Assembly (NCBI GenBank): GCA_028336925.1
Contig: JAOKVV010000004.1
Coordinates: 43,041 to 107,040 of the forward strand
Origin: Vicingaceae bacterium
GTDB lineage: Bacteria > Bacteroidota > Bacteroidia > Flavobacteriales_E > Vicingaceae
Reading direction: 5' to 3'
DNA: 64,000 nucleotides
The notes under the pieces were generated by a model. That model was not told where the DNA came from. It made no database searches and worked only from the letters and a program-made list of their open reading frames with translations. The position numbers and the translations under genes are program-made. This document shows positions 22,343-30,695 of this stretch, piece after piece (positions within the stretch are counted from its first letter, which is position 1; the number at the start of each line of letters is the position of its first letter).

Positions 22343-23209
22343 TTGAAAAAGCATTTCTTATTATTTTTTCTAAGCCTTACCTTAGTTACCCACCTATCCA
22401 AGGCTCAAAAAACTGCAGACACTTCACCCTCAGGAGATTCGAAATCACAGGGAATATCCGTATCACCTGCACACTTTCACCTTTCAATTGAACCAGGCGA
22501 CCAAAAAACAAAAAAAATTGCAGTAACAAATAACACAGATAAAACTCAATTATTCCAAGTAAAAGTTTATGACTTTAACATGAATGGTAAAGGAAAAAGT
22601 AGTTTTATCCCTAAGGGAGAAGGAGAATACTCACTATCTAAGTATATGAACATCTCACCAACATTTTTTGAAGTCGCGTCAGGAGAAAAAAAAGAATTTT
22701 CATACACTGTTTCAATACCTGATTCAGATGAAGGAAATAGAGCCGCATGGTCTGTAATTATGATAGAACAGGCGGAGCCTAAAAAAGAACTATCACCAAT
22801 AAAGAAAAGTGCAGGCACTATAGCTCTAGGTGTTATCCCAACTTATGCCTTTGGTGTTTACATTTATCAAAACCCACCAAATGTTTCAGTTAATAAAGTA
22901 GAGATTACCGACTTTGCTTTTACAACTGATCAAGGATCAAATTTTATCAACATTGAAACTAAGAATATCGGTGATGGAATTGCTTATTGTAACTCCTATG
23001 TTGACCTTATTAATAATGAAACAGGCGAACAGAGAAGATTAGAAGTAAAACGTTTTACAATAGTTCCTTCTTTAATCCGAGATTTTAAATTTCAATTACC
23101 AGAACTTCAAAATGGGAGTTACACCGCGATAGGAGTGCTGGATTTTGAAAATGCCGAAGAAATACAAGCAGCAAAAATGCAATTCACAATAAACCAACCT
23201 ATTAAATAA
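22343..23209 (+). CDS. periplasmic chaperone-like protein (DUF916/PapD-like Ig folds)
   Basis: TTG start; signal peptide; ISVSPAHFHLSIEPGDQKTKKIAVTNNTDKTQLFQVKVYDF and ISPTFFEVASGEKKEFSYTVSIPDSDEGNRAAWSVIMIE resemble fimbrial chaperone N-domains. Confidence 0.65.
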   Translation: MKKHFLLFFLSLTLVTHLSKAQKTADTSPSGDSKSQGISVSPAHFHLSIEPGDQKTKKIAVTNNTDKTQLFQVKVYDFNMNGKGKSSFIPKGEGEYSLSKYMNISPTFFEVASGEKKEFSYTVSIPDSDEGNRAAWSVIMIEQAEPKKELSPIKKSAGTIALGVIPTYAFGVYIYQNPPNVSVNKVEITDFAFTTDQGSNFINIETKNIGDGIAYCNSYVDLINNETGEQRRLEVKRFTIVPSLIRDFKFQLPELQNGSYTAIGVLDFENAEEIQAAKMQFTINQPIK

Positions 23210-23210
23210 A

Positions 23211-23999
23211 ATGATTAAAATGAAAAAACTAAATCTACTTCTCGCCAATATTCTTTTGATAGGTATTGGAGTATCAAATGCACAACTTATTGATGAAAAA
23301 GATGTAACCATAACTATGGACCTTCAACCGGTACTGCAGTTAGAAATGACTACATCGGACCAAATAGAATTTGTATTTGATGATATTAACGATTATTATG
23401 CAGGTATTACAAGATATGCAGCAACAGTTCTAAAAGTTAGTTCTACAGTAAGTTGGGATTTATACGCAGTAGGGAGATCTAATGGGAGCAATGGCCCAGA
23501 ATTTTGGGATCAACAAATCGATTATGGAAATAATAATGCTAATGCTATTCCTGATTTGCCATTATCATTATTAGAGCTTCGTCAAACACAACCAAATACA
23601 GGAGATGGAGCGGCAGTAGGTACATTCTCTGACTATTCTCAAGCGTTATCTGATGTAAATACTCCAAGCGCAGGCAATAGCTTATATGTAAATGCAGGTA
23701 CAAATACGCCTCCTACAACAAACGACAAATACATCGCAGGTCATGCAGGAACAACGGGTGTAGCAGGGGATGATTTTATGCCAGGCGGAAGCTACATGAC
23801 ACAAAATACGGTAAACTCAAACTATTACTATACAATTGATTACAGAATACTACCAGGCTTACCTGCAATTTTCCCAATGGCAGCTGATGCAGATGGAGCA
23901 ACATTTGAGGATTTAGAAACTGTAAATGGCGGTGGATCTTATGCAGAGCCAGGCGTATATACAATGTACGTGCAATATATATTATTAGAAGATCAATAA
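23211..23999 (+). CDS. small secreted beta-rich protein, putative fibre subunit
   Basis: Signal peptide MKKLNLLLANILLIGIGVSNAQ, beta-rich, C-terminus PGVYTMYVQYILLEDQ; immediately follows the chaperone-like gene. Confidence 0.55.
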   Translation: MIKMKKLNLLLANILLIGIGVSNAQLIDEKDVTITMDLQPVLQLEMTTSDQIEFVFDDINDYYAGITRYAATVLKVSSTVSWDLYAVGRSNGSNGPEFWDQQIDYGNNNANAIPDLPLSLLELRQTQPNTGDGAAVGTFSDYSQALSDVNTPSAGNSLYVNAGTNTPPTTNDKYIAGHAGTTGVAGDDFMPGGSYMTQNTVNSNYYYTIDYRILPGLPAIFPMAADADGATFEDLETVNGGGSYAEPGVYTMYVQYILLEDQ

Positions 24000-24009
24000 G
24001 AATCGTTAA

Positions 24010-24041
24010 AAGGAATCACTTAAAACGTGATTCCTTTTTTA
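24010..24041 (+). terminator. intrinsic terminator between the two subunit-like genes
   Basis: AAGGAATCAC-ttaaaac-GTGATTCCTT perfect 10-bp stem, then TTTT. Confidence 0.85.
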
Positions 24042-24059
24042 TCTATTAATCTAACATAT

Positions 24060-24671
24060 TTGAGAGCAAATTTACTCCTCTGTTCTATATCTTTATTCTT
24101 TACAAATTCACTTTACAGCCAAATACATTGTGGTTTAGTTGAAATTGAGCCAAACACAAGTATAAATAATTCAATAACGTTTGATAGTTTTCAGCGTTAC
24201 CAAGGAGGCTACACCATCAACAGTGCAGCTAGAATTAGAGTTAAAGTTGAAGATAAAAGTACACCTGATCCACTTTGCTCTTGGAGCCTTAGAATGATAG
24301 TGGACAATAATTCTGTAAGTGGAACTCCCATAGATGAATGGGAGGAGTTATACCTATATGGTTTAGGTAATAGTTCAAATCCGACAATTGATGCATTAGA
24401 AATTAGAGTAAGAAATGAATGCAGTACATCCCCTATAGATGGTGTATTTACTAATTTCAATAACGATCAGGATCTTATTGAAATAATTGCCCCATTACTA
24501 CCAATAACACCTGCGGGAAGTTGCACACTCAACGTGAATGGACCGGGGAGCTATCAAACTAATTATAATGAATTTAATTTTAATATTGATATTAGAGTAA
24601 AGCCAAATTTCACCTTCAATCCCGGGCTTTTTGAACTAAACATTAAGTTTATCTTAGAAGAAAACCCATAA
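24060..24671 (+). CDS. second small secreted protein, putative fibre subunit
   Basis: In-frame TTG at 24060 gives signal peptide MRANLLLCSISLFFTNSLYSQ; the GTG at 24027 lies in the terminator arm. C-terminus PGLFELNIKFILEENP parallels the preceding gene. Confidence 0.55.
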   Translation: MRANLLLCSISLFFTNSLYSQIHCGLVEIEPNTSINNSITFDSFQRYQGGYTINSAARIRVKVEDKSTPDPLCSWSLRMIVDNNSVSGTPIDEWEELYLYGLGNSSNPTIDALEIRVRNECSTSPIDGVFTNFNNDQDLIEIIAPLLPITPAGSCTLNVNGPGSYQTNYNEFNFNIDIRVKPNFTFNPGLFELNIKFILEENP

Positions 24672-24679
24672 TCCAAAAG

Positions 24680-27616
24680 ATGTCTTCTAGTAAATATACC
24701 CCTGTAATTAACTTACTAAAGCTAGTTTTAACTTTGCTACTTTCTGTTAATGCTATGAATAGCGTTGCGCAAGATAGCTTAATTAACAATCAAAATAAGT
24801 TAATTATAAACTTTAGAGACAGCACACAAGAATTAGTAAAAGGTCAATTAGTTACCAATGTTCTCCATATCATCAATCAAACTAATGAAACAAAAACTTT
24901 TGTATATGATATTTTACACCCTTCAGAGTGGACTCGACTAGATGACAAATTAGGGTACTCCTTGGAACAAGGTGATGAAATTTTCATTCCAATCATACTT
25001 ATCCCAAAACAAATAAGCAATACAAACACTGATATCTTCATCAATGCATATTTACTCGATGAGGAAAATCAACAAATTGGAAATGCTTACTTCTCCCTAT
25101 ATACAAAGAAGGAAGTTTCATGGGACGCTAGATCAATATCATCAGAAAGAATATACCTCAGGAATGGTGAAAAAAACACCACTATTAACTACCAGATCGT
25201 GAATACTGGAAATTTTGATCAGGAGATCATATTTTCCACAAATGCTTTAAGAAATAATATTATTTTAAAGGATAGTTCAGGAAGTAGACTCATAACTAAG
25301 CAACAAATAAAACTAAAAAGATATGAAGACACCATCTTTGACATTTCAGCCGAAGTCCTTCCTTTTATGGAAAGAAACTTTAAGAAAGTATCCGCTCTTA
25401 CTTATCAACCAAGTAGACTCACTGAGATAGAAAAATTTACATTATTCCTTCAAACAAATGAACCCAAACTTAAGGGGGAAAACCAATATTCTAGAAATAG
25501 TAAAATAGATATTTTGCGTTTAAACAGCCAAAAAGAAGTCAATCAATTTGGAGACAATCAATTGCCGCTAACAGTTGAAGCAAATATTCAAAATGTGTTA
25601 TCTGAATTCTCATTTATGAATATAAATGCAAGGGGTTTTAAACAACTTAATAAAGATGCTAGCTTATCCTATTTTGCTCAGCTCAACTACAATGAATCTT
25701 ATTGGAATAGTCAATCAATTATGAATTCGCCTTGGTATGTTGGGTATTTTGATGAAAGAAAAACCATTGAAATCGGAAATATATCAGGAAATATTAATGG
25801 TATTAATAATTTTGGAAAAGGCTTTAAAGTTTCCTACAAATATTTTGAAAATCAGAAATCAACAGTATACTATTTAAGAAACCCAACATTAGTTGGACCT
25901 TCACAAAACGAGTCTGTTGGTATAGAACATGAATCTAGGATTAATAATAACTTTAAAGTAATTGCAAAACTTGGTAGAAATATAAATCGAATAAGTGGCA
26001 ATGAAATTAATGCCTATTCAATTAGTCCAACCTTTACAATAAATAAAAACCATTCAATTAACTTACTTGCAACAATTACAGATAGACAGAAAATTGGATT
26101 AAGAAACACAGAAATTGGAAGCCTTTTTGGAGGTAGCTATTCAACTAACTACTTAGAAAAAAGAGCTAATTCTTCAATTACGTTTAGATTTAATGATAGA
26201 AAATTTAGCTCAGGCGGTTTTTCTAGAACGATTATTAATCAAAGAACCAGGTATACTATTAATAAAAAATGGAACTTTTTTATTAATAATAACTATCAAA
26301 AAATAGATTCAAGAAAGCAACTAAACACAAGTGTACCTCTACAAGAATATTTTTTCAATAATTTCTTTTTCTCAACAACAAGCAAAAATGGTACTTGGCA
26401 GCCAGGAGGATATTATAACGTAAACAATGTTCGCTTAAATAAAACACATAGTAGAGGAGTTTCATTTAGATATGCGACCTATAACTTTAAAAAAAATTCT
26501 CTAGTATCCCTTTTATTTAAAGCCGGATATAATGACCCGGTTGATTTTATAGACATCCCGAATTATTTCAACTTTGAATTTACGAGTATACTCAGATATA
26601 AAGTTTGGAATATCACTACCAGATATCATTATGGGGCACAGTCTATACCTGAATTACTTAATATGAGAGAGCAAAATTATACCGCTCAAAAACTAAGACT
26701 TTCAGCCAACAATCAATACCAATTTAAGAACCCAAAATATCTTTTTGAGAATACCTTATCCTATAATTTTACAAATCGCTTTAATAGCCATAACATTGGT
26801 CTATTCCCGCAAATCTTTTACTTTACTAATAATGGATATAGATTTGGATTAATGGTAAACTATAATCTAAGATCTAATAATTATTCTTCTTTATTTGATA
26901 ATTACCAGAATAACTCTATTGGAAGCAGTAATGACTTAGGAAATGTAACACAATCTACATTTAACCTTTCAATAAACATCAAAAAAGATTTTGGTATCCC
27001 ACTACCATTTTTAAAAAGCACCTCATCAACTGCAAAATTTAAAGTATTTTATGACTTAAATGGTAATGGACAATATGATGAAAATGAAATTTCAATTGAA
27101 AACACCGTACTTAGAATAAATGAATATGAAATAATTACTGATGAAAATGGTGAAGCGGGATTAACTAACTTGTCGTTTGGAACTTATCAACTAGGAATCA
27201 TTAGTTTAGATAAAATAAAAGGTTGGTTTCCTGAAATAGAAGATAGTATAGAGATATTCAATAGTAGAGTTATTTATGTGCCTTTCGTAAAAGGAATAAA
27301 AGTAATAGGAGAAGTTAATATTGATCAACAAAAGATAAGTATCGCAGATGAAAAGGATCAAATTAACCTTGAAAGAATCAAAATTACCGCCAATGGCAGA
27401 AGCGTATACAATACCTTAACCGATTCTGAAGGAAAGTTTGAATTTTATTTACCTGTTGGCCGTTATACTTTAACATTAGACGAAAGCATATTAGGTGATC
27501 GATTTAAGCTCGTAGAAAATAATATTGCAATAACACTAACTAAAAATAAAGAGGGATTATATTCCTCCTTTTATATTTTAGAGAAGAGAAGAAACATAAA
27601 TATTAAGACCTTTTAA
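24680..27616 (+). CDS. usher-like outer membrane protein with C-terminal SdrD/CNA-like domains
   Basis: 978 aa; signal peptide; N-terminal Ig-like region, long aromatic/Asn-rich alternating beta region (barrel-like), FYDLNGNGQYDENEISIENTVLRINEYEIITDENGEAGLTNLSFGTYQLGI. Confidence 0.55.
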   Translation: MSSSKYTPVINLLKLVLTLLLSVNAMNSVAQDSLINNQNKLIINFRDSTQELVKGQLVTNVLHIINQTNETKTFVYDILHPSEWTRLDDKLGYSLEQGDEIFIPIILIPKQISNTNTDIFINAYLLDEENQQIGNAYFSLYTKKEVSWDARSISSERIYLRNGEKNTTINYQIVNTGNFDQEIIFSTNALRNNIILKDSSGSRLITKQQIKLKRYEDTIFDISAEVLPFMERNFKKVSALTYQPSRLTEIEKFTLFLQTNEPKLKGENQYSRNSKIDILRLNSQKEVNQFGDNQLPLTVEANIQNVLSEFSFMNINARGFKQLNKDASLSYFAQLNYNESYWNSQSIMNSPWYVGYFDERKTIEIGNISGNINGINNFGKGFKVSYKYFENQKSTVYYLRNPTLVGPSQNESVGIEHESRINNNFKVIAKLGRNINRISGNEINAYSISPTFTINKNHSINLLATITDRQKIGLRNTEIGSLFGGSYSTNYLEKRANSSITFRFNDRKFSSGGFSRTIINQRTRYTINKKWNFFINNNYQKIDSRKQLNTSVPLQEYFFNNFFFSTTSKNGTWQPGGYYNVNNVRLNKTHSRGVSFRYATYNFKKNSLVSLLFKAGYNDPVDFIDIPNYFNFEFTSILRYKVWNITTRYHYGAQSIPELLNMREQNYTAQKLRLSANNQYQFKNPKYLFENTLSYNFTNRFNSHNIGLFPQIFYFTNNGYRFGLMVNYNLRSNNYSSLFDNYQNNSIGSSNDLGNVTQSTFNLSINIKKDFGIPLPFLKSTSSTAKFKVFYDLNGNGQYDENEISIENTVLRINEYEIITDENGEAGLTNLSFGTYQLGIISLDKIKGWFPEIEDSIEIFNSRVIYVPFVKGIKVIGEVNIDQQKISIADEKDQINLERIKITANGRSVYNTLTDSEGKFEFYLPVGRYTLTLDESILGDRFKLVENNIAITLTKNKEGLYSSFYILEKRRNINIKTF

Positions 27617-28064: not shown

Positions 28065-30695
28065 ATGTTTAGAATAATAGTATCCTCTCTATTAATTATC
28101 CTTTGCTTCAATAGCAATCTATATGCTCAAAAAACGTTCAGTAAAAAAGAAGAAAAATTACTAACACAAAAAGGAGAAGCTTATTACAATGATGAATATT
28201 ATCTAAAAGCTGCAAAAATATTTGAGCAGCTAAATAAGTCAAATCCTAAAGATTTGTATTATGAATTAATGGTTGGAATCTGTTACAGCTTCCTAAACAA
28301 CAAAAAGGAAAGCGCACTAGATATTCTCCTAACGGTAAAAAGCAAAAACCCTAATTACAACGAAGTCAATTTCTTTTTAGCTAGGGCTTATGCAGTAAAT
28401 CACCAATTTGATCAAGCGATCACGTGGTTTAATAAGTACCTCTCCAATCCTGATCTTTTGCCAGAGGATAGAGATAAAGCAAGATTACATATTGCCAATT
28501 GTAATAACGCGAAAGGAATTGTACCTGATAGTTTAGCGTTGGTCATTGAGAACATTGGTCCTCCAATTAATACAAAATATGAGGAATATGTCCCAATTAT
28601 TACGCCTGATGAACGTATATTAATTTTTACAGATCGCGGAGAAAAAAGTTTAGGAGGAAAAATGGATCGTTCCGGCAATTTTGATCCAAAAGGTGAGTAT
28701 TATGAAGACGTTTTAATTTCTTATAAATTAGGAGATAAATGGACTGATCCCAAAAGCATTGGCAGCAATATCAATTCGAGCAAACACGATGCTAGCATTG
28801 CTATATCAGCTAGTGGAAACAAGCTATTTACCTATAGAAGTAGCAATAAAAATGAAGGTGATATATATCTCAGTGAACTTAAGAAAGGAATGTGGACTAC
28901 ACCATCAGTCTTAAACTCTGAAATAAACTCTGAATCATGGGAAGGAAGTGCAAGCTTAACAAGTGATGAGAGAACATTGTACTTCACAAGTGAGCGACCA
29001 GGGGGTTATGGAGGTAGAGATATTTACAAAGCCGTGTTAAAACCAAATGGCCAGTGGGGAAATGTAATGAATCTTGGACCAAAAATTAATACTAAATATG
29101 ATGAAGATGCTCCATTCATTCATCCGGATGGAAGAACCTTGTATTTCAGCTCTAAAGGTCATAATAGTATTGGAGGTTATGACATCTTTTACACTTACTT
29201 AGATGAAAATGAATGGGACGCTCCCTCAAATGTAGGCTATCCTGTAAATACCATCGAAGATGACCGATATTATGTATTAACCGCAGATGGGTCTAAGGGA
29301 TATTATTCATCAGCAGGAAAAGATGACTCTTATGGCGGAAATGATATTTATGTAGTGAGCCCAGGGCACTTTGGTACACGACCAATCCTAGCATTAGTAG
29401 TAGGAGTTACAAAAGTAGACGGAAGAGAGGCTCCTGCAAAAATTATTGCAACTAATTTAGAAACAAATGAATACGAAAATAGTACTGTTTTAGATGAAAA
29501 AACTGGCCAGTTTATGATTTCTCTAATTCCAGGAAAAAAATATCGAATTGCTATCGAAATTGAGGGAGCAAAAACTACTTATGAATATATTGATGTTGAA
29601 TCTGTAGAAACATTCGTGCAGGTAAATCACAACATAGATTTATACACTGATGAAATACCTTTAACTGAGAAAAATATTTTAGAAAACGAAAAATCACAAG
29701 GCAGTTCATTACAAGACAAACTTAATGAGCAGATTATGCGTGTAAAGGAATTTGCAAGTGATAGTATAGAATATTCAAAAATTGATTTAAACAAACGTAT
29801 TTCTAAATTAGAAAAATACAATAGAGAGGTAAGGGAAGCATCACAAAAAGACAAATTATCAAGTGGTGGGTTAGAAGCTGCGAATACAAAACCAATAGCC
29901 GGTCTTTCTTTTAAAGTAGAGTTAGGCGCTTTTAAAGACACAAATGAATTTGACTTGTTGCAATTTACCAAATATGGTAAGATTTCAAGAACTCTATATC
30001 CCGATGGATTTTTTCGATATACTTTTGGTCCTTTTGAAACGCTAAAGGATGCTGAAAACTTTCGAGAAATGCTAATAGAAAAAGAACCTGAAACAGCTGA
30101 TGCTTTTATTACAGTTTTTGTTTTTGGTCAAAGAAAAACAGTTGAGGAGTTTACTGAGGAATATACCCTTTTTGGACTTGAACCTATTGAGAACGCTCTA
30201 TCTAAATCAGAAATTAATAGCCCCCCTATTAAGAATATTGATAATCTACCACAAAAGGAAGATGGAAATTTATTACAAAATATAGAGCTGAGAACCGACC
30301 CATGTGACAATTATACCCTAGATGCTTTTACAGCATTTATTTTAAAAGATATAAAAGTCGAAGCGAACTACAATCGTTTATTAGAATTAGTAGGATCAAT
30401 ATGTCACCCCGATTTACATTTTGAAGTTCAAATTGGTGCATACAGAAAGCCAAATAATTTTAAATATGATCACTTATTATCTTTCGGCGATCCGTTGATT
30501 AGAAACTACCAAGATGAAATTACCAGATTTACACAAGGTGATTTTAAACCCTTTGGACAGGCAGAGGTATTGAGGCAACAAATTATCTCGAAAGGAACAA
30601 AAGATGCATGGATTACTCCATTTTACAAAGGAAAGCGTCTGTTGATGCAAGACTTGGTGAAAGGAACGTATGAAAATGCTCTAGGACTTAACTAA
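28065..30695 (+). CDS. TPR / PD40 (WD40-like) protein with two SPOR-like C-terminal segments
   Basis: TPR-like N-terminus, repeated LYFTSERPGGYGGRDIYKA / LYFSSKGHNSIGGYDIFYT PD40 motifs, then FKVELGAFKDTNEF and FEVQIGAYRKPNNF. Confidence 0.75.
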   Translation: MFRIIVSSLLIILCFNSNLYAQKTFSKKEEKLLTQKGEAYYNDEYYLKAAKIFEQLNKSNPKDLYYELMVGICYSFLNNKKESALDILLTVKSKNPNYNEVNFFLARAYAVNHQFDQAITWFNKYLSNPDLLPEDRDKARLHIANCNNAKGIVPDSLALVIENIGPPINTKYEEYVPIITPDERILIFTDRGEKSLGGKMDRSGNFDPKGEYYEDVLISYKLGDKWTDPKSIGSNINSSKHDASIAISASGNKLFTYRSSNKNEGDIYLSELKKGMWTTPSVLNSEINSESWEGSASLTSDERTLYFTSERPGGYGGRDIYKAVLKPNGQWGNVMNLGPKINTKYDEDAPFIHPDGRTLYFSSKGHNSIGGYDIFYTYLDENEWDAPSNVGYPVNTIEDDRYYVLTADGSKGYYSSAGKDDSYGGNDIYVVSPGHFGTRPILALVVGVTKVDGREAPAKIIATNLETNEYENSTVLDEKTGQFMISLIPGKKYRIAIEIEGAKTTYEYIDVESVETFVQVNHNIDLYTDEIPLTEKNILENEKSQGSSLQDKLNEQIMRVKEFASDSIEYSKIDLNKRISKLEKYNREVREASQKDKLSSGGLEAANTKPIAGLSFKVELGAFKDTNEFDLLQFTKYGKISRTLYPDGFFRYTFGPFETLKDAENFREMLIEKEPETADAFITVFVFGQRKTVEEFTEEYTLFGLEPIENALSKSEINSPPIKNIDNLPQKEDGNLLQNIELRTDPCDNYTLDAFTAFILKDIKVEANYNRLLELVGSICHPDLHFEVQIGAYRKPNNFKYDHLLSFGDPLIRNYQDEITRFTQGDFKPFGQAEVLRQQIISKGTKDAWITPFYKGKRLLMQDLVKGTYENALGLN

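Follow-up and report, generated by a model that had tools for sequence, protein, structure and literature searches.

A four-gene locus of Bacteroidota probably encoding a chaperone-usher-like pathway for TLP-type filaments

Type V pili are the known fibres of Bacteroidota. In chaperone-usher systems (PapD/FimC with PapC/FimD, and the alternate pair EcpB/EcpC) surface fibres are assembled by donor-strand exchange, in which the tip subunit alone needs no strand to donate. Two filament chains, TLP-1 (PDB 9ikj) and TLP-2 (PDB 9ikk), have been deposited as cryo-electron microscopy (cryo-EM) structures, each with 16 copies of one chain. TLP presumably stands for Tsinghua Lotus Pond, a set of CryoSeek filaments; judging by the name, TLP-1 and TLP-2 are probably among the CryoSeek pond-water filaments. 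The latter have received no conclusive identification, and no matching sequences have been found by proteomics or metagenomics, according to a 2026 review (PMC12967142). The four-gene locus described here very probably encodes a chaperone-usher-like pathway which builds a TLP-type surface filament. It is located in a window (the whole stretch of DNA analysed) of 64,000 nucleotides (nt) from a Vicingaceae bacterium (GCA_028336925.1, contig JAOKVV010000004.1, positions 43,041-107,040 of the forward strand), and has the following features, given in window coordinates with protein lengths in amino acids (aa).

22343-23209, + strand: chaperone, 288 aa, periplasmic, with two immunoglobulin (Ig)-like domains, of PapD/WxLIP type by Pfam, PDB sequence search, profile and fold
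23211-23999, + strand: S1, major fibre subunit, 262 aa, homologue of the cryo-EM filament proteins TLP-1/TLP-2
23286-23345, + strand: mature N-terminal strand of S1 (residues 26-45, LIDEKDVTITMDLQPVLQLE), candidate donor strand
24008-24038, + strand: stem-loop of 12 bp with a T-rich tail, -14.6 kcal/mol, directly 3' of the S1 gene, probable attenuator or mRNA-protecting hairpin
24027-24671, + strand: S2, minor subunit, 214 aa, S1-related, without N-terminal strand; putative tip; start codon uncertain
24680-27616, + strand: usher-like outer-membrane protein, 978 aa
24782-25471, + strand: N-terminal Ig-like domains of the usher-like protein (residues 35-264), distantly chaperone-like by profile
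25472-27019, + strand: putative beta-barrel of the usher-like protein (residues 265-780), aromatic/Asn-rich, lacking Cys
27032-27613, + strand: C-terminal SdrD/SpaA/CarboxypepD-like beta-sandwich domains of the usher-like protein (residues 785-978), by Pfam

By homology, S1 is a member of the family of the deposited filament chains TLP-1 and TLP-2. A search with the single sequence retrieved TLP-2 (E 2.9e-44) and TLP-1 (E 5.4e-43), and a profile search retrieved the same chains at 1.3e-61 and 1.8e-59, respectively. S1 and TLP-2 are 39.6% identical over 230 residues, and 57% identical in the first 65 columns, where S1 resembles TLP most and where the candidate donor strand is located. Homology spans the whole mature length, N-terminal strand included; as the match begins right after the predicted signal peptide, the solved chains must keep the mature N-terminal strand. 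The S1 protein encoded by a Sphingobacteriaceae metagenome-assembled genome (L002) is slightly closer to TLP-2 (43.7% identity). Pilins of the wider family still match TLP weakly (E 0.004) when all TLP-type rows are removed. A strand of alternating pattern is found at the N-terminus of nearly all pilin rows and is absent in S2; in S1, it appears suited to donor-strand exchange, and is a candidate donor. On sequence grounds, the pilins may be incomplete sandwiches. Profile comparison of the pilin family with Escherichia coli K-12 pilins revealed no similarity, in line with the initial annotation of the locus, which had recognised no classical FimA motif.

S2 is related to S1 (97.6%, profile comparison). 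The two small secreted proteins had already been proposed as subunits; their homology to each other, and the membership of S1 in the TLP family, support and refine the proposal. Since S2 is devoid of the N-terminal strand, and a tip has no need of one, S2 is probably the tip subunit.

By family profile and by fold the first protein is a PapD-like periplasmic chaperone, and WxLIP is its closest solved relative. It scores 30.3 bits against Pfam WxLIP_PGBD (cut-off 27.3), and its closest solved relatives in a PDB sequence search are the Enterococcus faecium WxLIP structures 9i25/9i1y (E 3e-4). Taken alone, the window chaperone stays below the PapD_N cut-off (13.3 bits against 23). Nineteen family members compared with seven K-12 chaperones, among which EcpB and FimC, gave by hhalign 95.9% and E 5.5e-9, in an alignment covering both domains; controls made by reversal or column shuffling gave 0.1-0.9%, and weigh more than the E-value because hhalign values are pairwise and refer to no database. 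An AlphaFold model of the window chaperone obtained from three rows (predicted local distance difference test, pLDDT, 65) features two beta-sandwich domains. Compared by Foldseek to the PDB, the model matched WxLIP first (5.7e-11) and FimC at 3.0e-6, and the best 50 matches include FimC, CfaA, Caf1M, PapD, CsuC and EcpB. In PapD, R8 and K112 hold the C-terminus of the pilin. The position resembling R8, as read by eye on the alignment, is Arg in most relatives (SPPRLYF) and His in the window (SPAHFHL), and no clear equivalent of K112 was seen. The chaperone profile also hit synaptotagmin C2 domains, at chance level, and these hits were discarded. The chaperone-like two-Ig protein noted initially is thus related to the PapD type by family profile and fold. 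The proximity in sequence and fold suggests that WxLIP and PapD-type chaperones share a common origin.

The genes are consecutive on the same strand, separated by 1, 27 and 8 nt, and the unit is flanked by a divergent thiol-peroxidase-like gene at 169 nt and, on the other side, by an unrelated gene at 448 nt. The chaperone gene starts with TTG, and TTG is found at the aligned position in the Vicingaceae genome L001 as well. The GTG start of S2 overlaps the stem-loop, and its exact position is therefore uncertain. All four proteins begin with a signal-peptide-like stretch, read by eye with no predictor, which ends in A/S-x-x before Q and lacks a lipobox; the end falls between SNA and QLID in S1, and between LYS and QIHC in S2. 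Gene arrangement and signal peptides agree with what had been annotated. Pfam recognised in the four proteins only WxLIP_PGBD, in the first, and domains of the SpaA/SdrD/CarboxypepD type, at the C-terminus of the last; no NCBIfam model scored above its cut-off for proteins of the locus.

The same four genes, 79-95% identical and in unchanged order, are found in L001. The order chaperone-S1-S2-usher recurs in the loci L012, L013 and L014, and S1-S2-usher are present in L015, where the contig end cuts off the chaperone. An arrangement shared to this extent is more than chance, and the expectation, set with the first description of the locus, that gene order be conserved in other genomes is borne out. 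Identity of the usher-like protein to that of the window is 80% in L001, 43% in L012, 41% in L013 and L014, and 38% in L015. Within the order to which the organism belongs, the usher-like gene was detected in 6 of 46 genomes, its own genome counted. As the L012-L015 modules each lie amid different neighbours, the genes form a discrete module, and its distribution is patchy. L002 has the order S1-S2-usher-FKBP-chaperone. The gene interposed between usher and chaperone (L002:11380-12981) encodes a 533-aa protein with FKBP-like repeats, as judged by eye, which might assist the folding of subunits. S1 evolves more slowly than the other three proteins (80% identity to L012, versus 43% for the usher), with a ratio of nonsynonymous to synonymous changes (dN/dS) of 0.03-0.08; synonymous sites are near saturation, so this conservation reflects constraint and not recent transfer. 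Such a gap between fibre subunit and usher, with the subunit by far the better conserved, is the reverse of our expectation for classical pili.

The profile of the usher-like protein retrieved full-length relatives, of about 930-975 aa, from another 12 loci, which belong to other Bacteroidota. A chaperone homologue is located beside pilins in all 12, though these were found by the usher profile alone, and the chaperone profile applied to them had been built before they were known. The commonest layout consists of an AraC-type regulator, at least one pilin, the chaperone, a ~340-aa protein and the usher. In the ~340-aa protein, which neighbours the usher in most loci, a pilin domain (99.4%, profile comparison) is located at the C-terminus, behind a separate N-terminal domain; tip adhesins of the FimH type are built this way. 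Across 396 genomes, 17 ushers of full length scored 748 bits or more, the next match reaching 56, and the 17 top-ranking chaperones scored 280 bits or more, the next reaching 127. Each of these ushers is matched by one of these chaperones, and the pairs are spread over 14 genomes. Most of the pairs contributed to the profiles; three pairs which entered neither profile are likewise adjacent. Distance matrices of chaperones and ushers are correlated (r = 0.954; 0 of 2000 permutations), as expected for partners inherited together. The logic of chaperone, subunits and usher, initially read from order and composition at one site, is supported by a gene order recurring in other genera and by the joint travelling of chaperone and usher.

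Weaker chaperone and usher-like matches lie side by side in 13 further genomes, by manual count. Eight of these loci were read, and all host a chaperone, a long usher-like open reading frame (ORF) and small secreted proteins. They are outlying loci of Bacteroidota in the sense of GTDB (L065-L072, in genomes G289, G410, G004, G339, G288, G320, G329 and G153), in which the chaperone lies beside a usher-like ORF of 920-1340 aa. L066, L070 and L072 include DUF4402 or DUF4402-like proteins, and DUF4402 may be a fibre subunit family. The L072 chaperone exceeds the PapD_N cut-off. Some members of the wider family feature additional elements. The usher-like protein L070:5200-8919 carries a C-terminal SPOR domain (E 1.7e-8), and that at L002:7953-11369 a C-terminal extension of about 150 residues; either might be a peptidoglycan anchor. 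At L056:8687-15817, five similar pilin genes, with unrelated genes between, precede the chaperone, and fibres might vary there by gene copies.

In seven TLP-type loci the gap after the pilin gene can be read (the window, L001, L002 and L012-L015), and every one of them has a stem-loop there, the sequences being unrelated. Similar structures lie 3' of the pilin gene in L005, L049 and L052-L055, and none was seen there in L048, L051 and L059. In a terminator scan such sites were no more frequent than in shuffled sequences, so that the case rests on the repeated position and not on any single site. Pilus operons use elements of this kind to keep the major subunit in excess. By this analogy the stem-loop is a probable attenuator or mRNA-protecting hairpin.

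By sequence, the 978-aa protein is outside the known usher family. The Usher model (PF00577) matched nothing in the genome but did detect the E. coli control; a search of the same genome for PapD was also negative. Compared with alpha ushers, the usher-like family scored 4%, whereas true alpha ushers and classical ones recognise one another at 95%. The CooC_C match (C-terminus of CS1 ushers) seen in a relative was rejected as a link to alpha ushers, the model hitting many other large Bacteroidota proteins. The three regions of the protein differ in nature. Residues 35-264 are Ig-like, and the chaperone profile matches this N-terminus at 92.8%. Residues 265-780 contain 15.7% aromatic residues, 15.3% Asn and no Cys, and lag analysis revealed beta alternation, a pattern fitting either a barrel or sandwiches; a simple score based on counting strands could not tell barrels apart from other proteins. 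This stretch is a putative outer-membrane barrel. At the C-terminus, SpaA is above the Pfam cut-off (25.9 bits against 23.1), and SdrD_B and CarboxypepD_reg are just below theirs. Of the initial annotation of this protein, the Ig-like N-terminus, the aromatic/Asn-rich region, the SdrD-like C-terminal domains and the lack of a classical FimD/PapC motif all stand, a weak C-terminal signal apart; the barrel is still putative. Place, size and layout suggest that the protein acts as an usher, but as it lacks similarity to FimD/PapC this role is the least secure part of the scheme.

For export, barrel passage, donor-strand exchange, order of assembly and regulation we infer the following route. Sec-type signal peptides would export all four proteins, and the PapD/WxLIP-like chaperone would cap each pilin, S1 and S2, in the periplasm. 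Chaperone-subunit complexes would be received by the N-terminal Ig-like and C-terminal beta-sandwich domains of the 978-aa protein, and subunits would pass through its barrel. S2, having no strand to donate, would exit first as the tip; S1 would polymerise behind it, each S1 N-terminal strand inserting into the subunit ahead, and the stem-loop after S1 would keep S1 in excess. The initial assignment of the locus to a chaperone-usher-like surface fibre is supported by chaperone profile and fold, homology of S1 to TLP and conserved gene order.

Several observations weigh against this scheme. In this organism the filament is a prediction from the genes. TLP-type chaperones taken alone reach 1.2% against K-12 chaperones, and the link runs through their relatives, that is the rest of the chaperone family, which they match at 100% by profile. 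In the chaperone model, TM-scores near 0.3 make the relative placement of the two domains unreliable. The AlphaFold model of the 978-aa protein, built from three rows (window, L001 and L002), had a pLDDT of 29 and was not used. The usher-like family reaches 1.2% against K-12 ushers, and 20 diverse members gave no barrel similarity; the best resemblance, obtained with a pooled set, is weak, C-terminal and of EcpC type, at most 70% over about 110 columns.

The usher-like protein could be read as a highly diverged member of the FimD/CooC family, and the locus as an ordinary chaperone-usher system missed by profiles. The protein falls in the same size class as these ushers and, like them, has N-terminal domains, a middle region and sandwiches at the C-terminus, and the EcpC-type signal and weak TcfC and CooC_C Pfam matches in relatives point the same way; the genome-wide lack of PF00577, the missing barrel similarity and the poor specificity of CooC_C make this reading rather unlikely. 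The relation of the first protein to WxLIP, above the Pfam cut-off and towards E. faecium by sequence and fold, raises the alternative of a WxL-type surface complex, in which a WxLIP-like structural adaptor stays on the surface with S1 and S2, and the 978-aa protein, instead of being a secretion gate, serves as a porin-like anchor. WxL clusters likewise combine one WxLIP with a small and a large protein (PMC10599100). Described WxL clusters have no outer-membrane partner, however; neither S1 nor S2 has a Pfam WxL match, S1 is homologous to deposited filament chains, and the chaperone family matches the PapD type over its full length, with the L072 relative above the PapD_N cut-off. A WxL-type complex is accordingly judged improbable.

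Filament formation by a homologue of S1 needs no usher per se, and S1 and S2 might self-assemble as secreted matrix or S-layer proteins, the neighbouring genes acting otherwise. The facts that they strictly co-occur with chaperone and usher and lie next to them, and that S2 lacks just the strand that a tip would not need, leave self-assembly a slightly smaller chance still. A type V pilus or a cargo operon of the type IX secretion system (T9SS) would correspond to the usual fibre and secretion routes of Bacteroidota. These are largely refuted by sequence and deserve hardly any credence, as S1 and S2 have no lipobox Cys, as seen by eye, no pilin-family Pfam match and no match to NCBIfam models of the T9SS tail, the absence of which from both small proteins had been noticed at the outset.

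Shared with chaperone-usher systems are a related chaperone, the pilin N-terminal strand, a strandless or two-domain tip candidate, the stem-loop after the major pilin gene and the operon logic, with chaperone, subunits and usher-like gene in one operon-like cluster. In contrast, the usher-like and pilin families are not recognisably related by sequence to their counterparts, and the usher-like protein features chaperone-like N-terminal Ig domains, and SdrD/CarboxypepD domains in place of the usher C-terminal domains. With the Gram-positive WxLIP/WxL clusters the locus has in common a chaperone matching WxLIP in Pfam, PDB sequence search and Foldseek; it differs for the outer-membrane context and the usher-like partner, and no Pfam WxL domain occurs in the pilin family as a whole. 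Phylum and extracellular fibre are as in type V (FimA/Mfa1) pili, whereas the locus shows no lipoprotein signal and no family match, and has a dedicated chaperone and an usher-like protein. The TLP deposits consist of the fibre protein alone; in the locus it is accompanied by a chaperone, a second subunit and an usher-like gene, and is linked to a group of organisms.

The gene downstream of the unit (window 28065-30695) encodes an envelope protein with TPR, a PD40 propeller and a SPOR-like region, and in L001 is kept after one inserted gene. It is probably not a member of the system, as it does not adjoin the module in L012-L015.

No paper describing this gene set was found, later work in subscription journals or preprints being liable to be missed by the search. 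The locus is best read as a so far undescribed variety of chaperone-usher system, and S1 connects it with a filament structure to which no source had been assigned. More tentatively, and with somewhat less than even confidence, a second, unannotated chaperone-usher pathway may extend across GTDB Bacteroidota, with a shared PapD/WxLIP-type chaperone, an independently derived usher and pilin folds of its own (TLP, and DUF4402 in the outlying loci), and may make the pond-water TLP filaments. The locus gives a genetic address to filaments known solely as cryo-EM structures. If the TLP identity holds, pond-water filaments are placed in one phylum, Bacteroidota, with a pointer to their assembly. The data also tie PapD-type chaperones to the WxLIP proteins of Gram-positive bacteria, and suggest that Bacteroidota have a chaperone-usher-like route whose usher is recognised by no Pfam or NCBIfam model.

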